Below the pieces are notes generated by a model. That model ran no database searches and was not told the DNA's origin. It saw only the letters and a list, made by a program, of their open reading frames with translations. From NCBI GenBank assembly GCA_003818505.1, contig RPRI01000032.1:1-41768 (forward strand): a stretch of 41,768 bases of DNA. Direction: 5' to 3'. Below are positions 3,811 to 41,768 of the stretch, piece after piece; the first letter of the stretch is position 1, and every line of letters starts with the position of its first letter. The stretch is from Desulfobacteraceae bacterium (GTDB taxonomy: Bacteria; Desulfobacterota; Desulfobacteria; Desulfobacterales; RPRI01). Made by a program: the position numbers and the translations under genes.

Positions 3811-5370
3811 ATGAACAATAAAGATTTATTGCTGGCGATAGACAACGGAACCCAGAGCCTGAAAGCTCTGATTTTCGATACTGAAGGCAACCTGCTTGCA
3901 AAGGAGTCGGCGCCTTTCAAGCCGTATTTTTCCAAACATCCGGGGTGGGCCGAGCAGGACCCTGATGTTTTCTGGGAAGCCCTCTGTCTTGCCTGCGGGA
4001 GACTTCTTAAAAAAGAAACTTCATACAGGGAGCGCATTGCGGGAGTCGCCCTCACAACACAAAGAGGCACTGTTATAAATCTGGACAAGGAAGGGAAACC
4101 CCTGCGTCCCGCTATCATCTGGCTAGATCAGCGCAAGACTCACGGACTTCCACCGCTTGGAGGATTCTGGGGGTTTCTTTTTGCGATAACAAATTTTACG
4201 GGAACAATAGACTATTTCCGCACAGAGGCGGAGGCTAACTGGATAAAAACCCATGAGCCCGAAATATGGAAAAAGACTTATAAATACCTTCTACTATCGG
4301 GTTATCTCACACACAGGCTGACGGGCAGGTTCGCGGATTCGGTGGGATGCCAGGTCGCGTATATTCCTTTTGATTATAAAAACCTGCGCTGGGCGGCAGA
4401 CTGGGACTGGAAATGGAAATGTGTTCCCGTGGACAAAGATATGCTTCCGGAGCTTGTGCCGTCAGGAAAGCAGATCGGAAGTATAACCAGAGCCGCTTCG
4501 GAGGCGACAGGAATTCCGGAAGGATTGCCTCTTATATCCGCTGCCGCCGACAAGGCATGCGAAGTCATAGGTTCCGGGAGCTTCGATTCTTCAATCGGCT
4601 GCTTAAGCTACGGAACGACCGCCACAATCAATGTCACGCATAAAAAATATGTCGAAGCTGTGCCTCTTTTACCGCCTTATCCCGCGGCGATTCCAGGATA
4701 CCATACAATAGAAGTTCAGAACATGAGAGGATTCTGGATGGTTAGCTGGTTCAAGGAAGAATTCGGCCTGAAGGAAAAGCAGGAAGCCTCCATTGAAAGG
4801 GTGGATGTTGAAACCCTTTTCGACAAGCTTGTTGAGAATGTGCCGCAGGGTTCGATGGGACTTGTTTTACAGCCTTACTGGACTCCCGGATTGAAGCTTC
4901 CCGGACCTGAAGCAAAGGGGGCTGTAATAGGCTTCGGGGATATTCATAACAGGGCCTATTTTTATAAGGCCATCCTGGAGGGCCTTGCATATGCCTTGAG
5001 AGAGGGCAAAGAGAGGATAGAGAAGAAGACCGGGATTCCCATAACAAGCCTCCGTGTGTCCGGAGGCGGTTCCCAGAGCAGGGTTGCCATGCAGGTTACA
5101 GCCGATGTTTTCGGGATACCAACGGCAAGGCCTCATCTTTACGAAACATCAGGGCTCGGGGCTTCGATGGATGCGGCTGTAGGGCTCGGATTCCACAGGG
5201 ATTTTGAAACGGCAGTCGGAGCCATGACCCGCACCGGCGATGTTTATGAACCTGATTTTGCGGCTCATAAACTGTATGACGAACTTTACAGGCATGTATA
5301 CAAAAAGATGTATAAACAATTGAAGCCGCTGTATGAGAAGATAAGGGAGATTACCGGGTATCCGAAATAG
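3811..5370 (+). CDS. FGGY-family carbohydrate kinase
   Basis: A 519-residue cytoplasmic sugar kinase that transfers phosphate from ATP to a sugar or polyol. [17 protein letters not shown] at the N-terminus is the phosphate-1 motif of the actin-like ATPase fold. [23 protein letters not shown] and [12 protein letters not shown] match the N-terminal FGGY domain. [12 protein letters not shown] and [16 protein letters not shown] are phosphate-2 and adenosine motifs of the C-terminal domain. The length fits xylulokinase and glycerol kinase relatives, but the substrate cannot be told by eye and no transporter or isomerase gene is adjacent. GGGAGGA precedes the ATG by three bases. The TAG stop coincides with the left edge of the 5368-5513 repeat, so the element may define the C-terminus. 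Confidence 0.87.
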
Positions 5371-5513
5371 TTTCCATCCGGAAATGGCCCTTTTGTGCGA
5401 TCTTAAGTGTCAATCTGCGGGATTTCTTGTGCGACATACTATGCGTATGTCTCCGCGCAATCCCTTGATTTTCTTGAGCTTGCCCAAAATTGCCTATTTC
5501 CGGATTGGAAACT
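5368..5513. repeat. Structured dispersed repeat, complete copy
   Basis: The ends are near-perfect inverted repeats: AGTTTCCATCCGGAAATGG on the left, and on the right the reverse complement of AGTTTCCAATCCGGAAAT. Inside, GACATAC (5433-5439) pairs with GTATGTC (5445-5451) and GGGATT (5419-5424) with AATCCC (5459-5464). A second copy at 41644-41768 is nearly identical but carries a compensatory change in the inner stem. The left edge TAG is the stop codon of the kinase gene. No protein is encoded. It resembles a MITE or a REP-like transcribed hairpin. Confidence 0.8.
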
Positions 5514-5576
5514 CAGCATTGTTCAAAATTTGTTTCCGGAGGAACAACAGATAAATTAAAAGGTTAGCGAATCACT

Positions 5577-11759: not shown

Positions 11760-11947
11760 GAGACCTTTGAAGAACGCCCAATTTTGGCCAAGTACAAGGA
11801 AGGTGATAATATAGCGCTTTCGCTTCACTTCGTGCAACCGCAGGAATACTTTGAAGTATTTCGAGGATAGCGCGAAAGCTTCACTTCGTGCCTAAATTTG
11901 AGCCTGACGCGGGAATCGGGCAAAAGAGGGTGTTATGCAAAGGTCTC
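11760..11947. repeat. Palindromic 188-bp element in the glutamate synthase operon
   Basis: GAGACCTTTG (11760-11769) and CAAAGGTCTC (11938-11947) are perfect 10-bp inverted ends. Inside, GCTTTCGC (11816-11823) pairs with GCGAAAGC (11872-11879), AATACTT with AAGTATT (11845-11860), and the 14-mer GCTTCACTTCGTGC occurs twice in direct orientation (11822-11835 and 11878-11891). No gene is encoded. It may be a non-autonomous mobile element or a transcribed structure between cotranscribed genes. Confidence 0.55.
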
Positions 11948-39009: not shown

Positions 39010-39154
39010 ACAGCCTAATATCGAAGTATGAGAATGAACAACGGTAAAGATTTAAGTCTTTGTAAAAAGTCCGAATCCCCGTTACTTCCTTAAAAAACGG
39101 GAGAGCAGAAATCATTGATAATGCAGGATAGCGCTTGAGATTCACCGGGCGCCT

Positions 39155-41323: not shown

Positions 41324-41530
41324 ATGCAAACGGTAACCGTTTCTCCTAAATTTCAGGTTGTTATCCCTAAAGATATTCGGGAGGCAATGCGCCTCCGCCC
41401 TGGGCAAAAGCTTAAAGTGATTGAATATGAAGGGCGAATCGAATTAATCCCTGATCGCGATATTTCAGAACTTAAAGGATTTTTAAAAGGAATAAATACA
41501 GATTTTGAGCGCGAGGGCGATAGACTATGA
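41324..41530 (+). CDS. vapB: AbrB/SpoVT-type antitoxin VapB
   Basis: A 68-residue antitoxin. The start MQTVTVSPKFQVVIPKDIREAM and the RPGQKLKVIEYEGRIELIP strand form the swapped-hairpin DNA-binding fold. The C-terminal part (GFLKGINTDFEREGDRL) should contact the toxin. The stop overlaps the toxin start by four bases (ATGA). Such pairs repress themselves through the N-terminal domain. The product looks intact even though the toxin is cut short. Confidence 0.88.
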   Translation: MQTVTVSPKFQVVIPKDIREAMRLRPGQKLKVIEYEGRIELIPDRDISELKGFLKGINTDFEREGDRL

Positions 41531-41646
41531 ATATCGTTGATTCGTCCGGATGGCTTGAATACTTTTCCGGAGGTCCAAACACGGAGTACTTTTCTTCACC
41601 TCTTAAAGACCATTCTTTTTTAATTGTCCCTGTTATTACTATTTAG
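41527..41646 (+). pseudogene. vapC: VapC PIN-domain toxin, truncated by repeat insertion
   Basis: Only 39 residues remain of an expected 130-140. MNIVDSSGWLEYFSGG contains the first PIN aspartate, and the text continues to IVPVITI before a TAG that belongs to the repeat element starting at 41644. In homologues the next residues would be a glutamate-containing helix of the active site (recalled family pattern), so the fragment cannot be an active RNase. The rest may resume beyond the window. The antitoxin gene upstream is complete. Confidence 0.8.
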
Positions 41647-41768
41647 TTTCCATCCGGAAATGGCCCTTTTGTGCGATCTCTGTGTCAATCTGCGGGATTA
41701 CTTGTGCGGCATACATTGCGTATGCCTCCGCGCAATCCCTTGATTTCCTTGAGCTTGCCCAAAATTGC
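41644..41768. repeat. Structured dispersed repeat, second copy (cut by window end)
   Basis: It matches 5368 onward almost base for base up to the window end. In the inner stem GGCATAC (41708-41714) pairs with GTATGCC (41720-41726), where the other copy has GACATAC/GTATGTC, so one A-T pair has become G-C. The right terminal repeat is outside the window. Confidence 0.85.

Follow-up and report, generated by a model that had tools for sequence, protein, structure and literature searches.

The repeat found next to the kinase gene in the window, i.e. the whole stretch of 41,768 nucleotides analysed here, is a MITE, a non-coding mobile DNA element. Its conserved 142-nt hairpin has been maintained by paired changes in at least 91 genera of a single bacterial order. 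In all likelihood this MITE is moved in trans by an ISNCY-family DDE transposase into TANNTA targets, spares the stop codons at which it inserts, and carries a hairpin conserved throughout the order. The element is known in kind, as a MITE; judging by the literature searched, its transposase partner, its range and its placement at stop codons are new, and no description of the family was found in that literature, which left out most subscription papers.

Limits, mobility and probable ISNCY link of the element

The alignment of the flanks of all copies, together with 101 full-length copies, placed the complete MITE at positions 5370 to 5547 of the forward strand, as a unit of about 177 bp, GTTTCCATCCGG...GGATGGACAC, that extends beyond the hairpin as far as a second terminal repeat. 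The unit, 178 bp long in this copy, consists of a hairpin half with a covarying stem, GTTTCCATCCGGAAAT ... ATTTCCGGATTGGAAAC (5370-5512, forward strand), and of a right-end module with the second terminal repeat (5513-5547, forward strand), in which GTTTCCGGAGGAACAA is a decayed version of GTTTCCGGATGGACAC. It is flanked on the left by the target duplication GAAATA (5364-5369), of the TANNTA type but partly decayed, and on the right by CAGATA (5548-5553). The initial annotation had drawn the repeat from 5368 to 5513; the repeat is real, but it starts at G5370 and ends at 5547, position 5513 marking the end of the hairpin half only. The second copy, which had been placed at 41644-41768, is also present, but its true start is at 41646, behind the left target duplication TATTTA (41640-41645), and only its first 123 nt (41646-41768, forward strand) are seen, the right limit being the contig end, which cuts off the rest, and not a biological one. 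Many other contigs of the assembly also break inside copies, which makes the repeat relevant to binning. Contigs C90, C148, C168, C350 and others of G000 end some 120 nt into a copy, and the repeat is a major cause of assembly breaks.

The element has terminal inverted repeats (GTTTCCATCC ... GGATGGACAC), no ORF of at least 80 aa was found inside its 177 bp, and at least 114 copies, counted by their left ends, are dispersed in the source genome. A perfect 6-bp target duplication flanked 54 of the 101 full-length copies, and five or more of the six positions agreed in 79 of them, with the duplication consensus TAWWTA; target duplications also flank copies elsewhere in the order. In the congener G001 (locus L274) the two flanking genes keep their collinear order without the element between them, the empty site reading CCGAAATA directly followed by ATCCG. 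The suspicion that the repeat was mobile is thus borne out by target duplications, terminal repeats and the empty site. Four insertion sites are common to the source genome and its congeners, indicating that some insertions are older than the species splits. No match to the hairpin was obtained in plasmids and phages, and among viral contigs two stretches matched one tip pattern and none matched the other. In the complete genome G078, 17 of the 25 copies listed were co-oriented with replication if the terminus lies at about 2.1 Mb, a bias that was not significant (p 0.11).

According to the initial annotation, no transposase class was evident. This statement is superseded, because ISNCY elements have matching terminal repeats and a matching 6-bp TANNTA duplication. 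Autonomous ISNCY elements of the same order are 1664-1676 bp long, encode a DDE transposase and have GTGTCCATCC ends, and GTGTCC termini with a perfect TANNTA duplication were found in 9 of the 11 ISs of the order in which both ends were located. The G029 transposase scored 443 bits against the ISNCY model NF033593 (cutoff 325) and contains DDE_Tnp_1, and the MITE and an ISNCY IS co-occur in G078, G090, G215, G224 and G289. The ISNCY elements of Rhizobium (L184 and L185) have the ends GTGCCCGTCC and GTTTCCGTCC and the duplications TAGCTA or TAGATA. ISNCY elements (NCBIfam NF033593, DDE_Tnp_1) from Rhizobium and from the order share with the MITE the ends GTGYCCRTCC / GTTTCCGTCC and the 6-bp TANNTA duplication. 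The MITE differs from them in its lack of a transposase gene, its length of 177 bp and its 142-nt hairpin, whose core is absent from the ISNCY IS ends, an observation that counts against the ISNCY explanation of the element.

The source genome contains two further repeats with the same 16-bp end, GTGTCCATCCGGAAAC, behind TANNTA, both running into contig breaks, and in the congener G008 a copy of one of the two leads into the N-terminus of a transposase; this N-terminus had no plasmid matches other than weak ones (E 0.09) annotated as ISNCY transposase. P0001 (46 aa) had no match in Pfam or NCBIfam, and a scan of genome contigs returned the congener itself as the only match. The source genome and the genus yielded no complete ISNCY element, just ends at contig breaks, and for this reason we infer the autonomous partner of the MITE; the source assembly lacks the ISNCY interior. 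Since the order's ISNCY elements and the repeat have terminal repeats and TANNTA duplications in common, the MITE is very probably moved by ISNCY transposases. Acting in trans, an ISNCY-family DDE transposase would recognise GTTTCCATCC and GTGTCCATCC, the terminal repeats of the MITE, and insert the MITE into TANNTA, duplicating the 6 bp, so that a high-copy MITE family is linked here to a transposase family.

Several other elements were noticed around these ends. At locus L130 (G000:C191) lies a very short element, about 50 bp long, which has the same ends and is flanked on either side by TAATTA, and L085, L331 and L332 have the same ends with a different hairpin core (GATGAGCTGCGTTCTCCGCGGG), the duplication of L331 being a perfect 6 bp. 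A putative 2.5-kb IS between ends around C93:711-3185 was rejected, as it would enclose a tex-like gene.

The ERIC/IRU repeats of enterobacteria are likewise short, palindromic and MITE-like and reach high copy; compared by description, they have another sequence and taxonomic range, and ERIC duplicates TA whereas the MITE duplicates TANNTA. They are often intergenic (PMC10969869). The Correia (NEMIS) elements of Neisseria belong to the same size class of MITEs, with 100-200 bp and more than 100 copies (PMC10969869), but they lie mainly upstream of genes and carry promoters, whereas the MITE described here prefers stop codons. QMITE2 of Coxiella burnetii is a MITE with terminal repeats and a core of similar size that lies mainly in gene 3' untranslated regions (PMC10969869), and by description it differs in its duplication of 7-9 bp, compared with 6 bp here. 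An identity as REP/RAYT was discarded: according to PMC3733652 and to general knowledge these are palindromes of 20-40 bp with a GTAG or CGTC tag and no target duplication, and the element has a 142-nt hairpin and a 6-bp duplication.

Insertion at stop codons

The FGGY-family carbohydrate kinase gene (3811-5370, forward strand) ends at a TAG (5368-5370) that is made up of the target TA and the first base of the element. The orthologue in G001 has TAA at that place, and the ancestral stop of the window copy is confirmed by this empty site. Because the element begins with G, and target TA plus G is TAG, the element, where it inserts on a stop codon TAA or TAG, would restore TAG and leave the protein intact.

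This arrangement is frequent. At the left junctions, long frames arrive in phase, with TA ahead of the junction and G behind it, in 34 of 148 copies (23%), compared with 5 for the other phases, and right junctions lie on an in-frame stop in 7 of 94 cases (7%; left versus right, p 0.0015). At control positions further upstream the phases were equal, and other genera showed the pattern as well (12 of 42). In the source genome, such stops account for 17 of 75 copies, compared with 16 of 375 non-disruptive TANNTA sites (4.3%; p 1.5e-6), the frame rules differing slightly between the copy set and the null set. Insertions on stops are therefore enriched, mostly with the hairpin end towards the gene, a stop-codon-sparing pattern with an orientation preference. 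A palindromic target does not account for this preference, which could reflect a role of the hairpin as RNA and counts in this respect against a purely DNA-level reading.

Next to the second copy, the region 41324-41646 contains a gene for a MazE-type antitoxin (PF04014) and, behind it, a short ORF that is stopped after 39 codons by the TAG of the target duplication and the second copy. This ORF is probably a toxin gene interrupted by the insertion; its stub had no Pfam match.

The hairpin across the order and within the genus

The sense strand of the hairpin is predicted to fold at -65.2 kcal/mol (z -10.1), a value that none of 200 shuffles equalled, and folding beats shuffled sequence on both strands (z -10.1 and -7.9). 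In Rfam only a tRNA was detected in the window, the best match of the element (E 9.6) being below the gathering score.

The initial annotation had deduced selection on the stem from one pair in the two copies of the window. The pair swap is real, since A5434-T5450 (pair 67-84 in the alignment numbering) lies in GACATAC/GTATGTC (5433-5439 with 5445-5451) and the second copy has GGCATAC/GTATGCC, and so is the accompanying drift of the loop from TATGC to ATTGC. Conservation of the stem also holds, but the evidence offered for it does not carry it, and it is the comparison between genera that establishes it. In the genus, the pair was read in 104 copies (69 from the source genome and 35 from its relatives): it is AT in 69, GC in 29, GT in 4 and AC in 2. 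The GC state is linked to the loop ATTGC, which indicates that the two-copy comparison had captured an old difference between subfamilies. Of the private stem changes in the genus, 74 in all, 60 destroy the pairing, 13 result in a wobble and a single one is compensated. The density of private changes is similar in the stem (74 in 100 columns) and in the loops (24 in 43 columns), whereas shared variation is concentrated in the loops (502 cells in 43 columns versus 347 in 100 stem columns). As private changes are even across stem and loops and shared ones are biased to the loops, most resident copies drift, and constraint becomes visible only in the propagating lineages. This separates two levels that tend to be mixed up, the conservation seen in lineages that propagate and the lack of any detected in most resident copies. 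The data from within the genus would not alone prove selection on the stem: uncompensated stem changes in further copies, the outcome named beforehand as telling against it, are seen there, whereas the pairs covary strongly across the order.

A covariance model and a search for more covarying pairs, both proposed in the initial annotation, were applied to the order. Run over 389 genomes of 150 genera, the model detected the hairpin in 232 genomes and 91 genera. Fifty-six hairpins, most of them from different genomes, were aligned by sequence alone with MAFFT; in this alignment 94.5% of the paired cells can pair, compared with 85.8% in shuffles, and 0 of 500 shuffles reached the observed pairing values. 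Changes on both sides were found in 29 of 44 pairs, and slid pairings pair just 26-50%. Parsimony on the element tree gave 72 double changes, compared with 4-12 for slid pairings; the 37 inner pairs were predicted on the same alignment and are thus favoured over their slid versions, a circumstance on which the double changes do not depend alone. Two or more double changes occurred in 16 pairs, and 7 at the pair first reported. The element is thus among the clearer cases of a mobile-element hairpin that is testable by covariation over about 100 genera.

These data bear on two explanations that dispense with folding. If the repeat were a mere duplication, the A-T to G-C difference would be chance or one old event of no structural meaning; within the genus the swap is indeed essentially one subfamily split and the other changes are uncompensated, but the 7 independent double changes at that very pair, and the slid and shuffled controls over the whole structure, contradict this explanation, which we regard as highly implausible. 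Template switching between inverted repeats is a known mutational process at quasi-palindromes, and by keeping the arms alike during replication it could mimic compensation; the position of the reported pair in the hairpin tip, and the linkage of its swap to the loop change within the genus, would agree with it. Asymmetric internal loops and a CTC bulge are nevertheless conserved across genera and not repaired, and the neighbouring pairs 52-99, 53-98 and 54-97 change independently, so that template switching appears improbable as the explanation.

DNA or RNA level of hairpin conservation

Conservation of the hairpin could have its reason in the DNA or in the RNA. We consider it quite possible, though only tentatively, that the hairpin is kept mainly because it serves the element's propagation as DNA, in the form of a cruciform or a single strand; folding would then aid propagation, rather than each resident copy yielding a useful RNA.

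Alternatively, the hairpin may act as sense RNA behind the stop, where it would protect or terminate the upstream mRNA or be cut by an RNase, well-folding copies surviving and seeding new ones. The predominance of the hairpin end on in-frame stops agrees with such a role, as do the very stable fold of the sense strand and the conservation of one U-G wobble, a family feature, and of unpaired motifs. There are also precedents, as ERIC copies at 3' ends can alter the mRNA level and the RNA hairpins of Correia (NEMIS) elements are substrates of RNase III (PMC10969869). Pairing in sense RNA under selection should, however, tolerate G.U more than A.C, and G.U was not favoured (20 versus 24 types in the order and 33 versus 37 in the genus), so this test gives no support for singling out sense-strand RNA pairing. 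Moreover, private mutations are as frequent in resident stems as in loops and mostly break pairs, older copies decay by deletion, and no U-run follows the hairpin. On balance, a sense-RNA role seems rather unlikely to be what maintains the structure.

Some hairpins have other outer repeats and lie right behind stop codons. At L068 and L322 (G036 and G095), two species of one genus have this hairpin core immediately behind a TGA stop, with TTTTCGGATT as a different outer repeat. The shared hairpin is 94% identical and the flanks 79-84%, pointing to a function that has been retained there; this conservation speaks for the RNA explanation and counts against propagation of the element as the only reason for the hairpin. 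It may be, although we think it unlikely, that the hairpin is an ancient structured module common to mobile elements with different ends, that, by acting directly behind the gene, it renders an insertion on a stop codon harmless or useful, and that some copies have been co-opted as fixed 3' structures.

Other repeats were also observed. In G048, a genome with 357 first-look candidates, locus L069 carries a different hairpin repeat, which lies at about positions 20-130 of this locus. In the window itself, two close copies of ATAGCGCTTTCGCTTCACTTCGTGC, 84% alike, lie at 11811-11891, with a weaker third at 39128.
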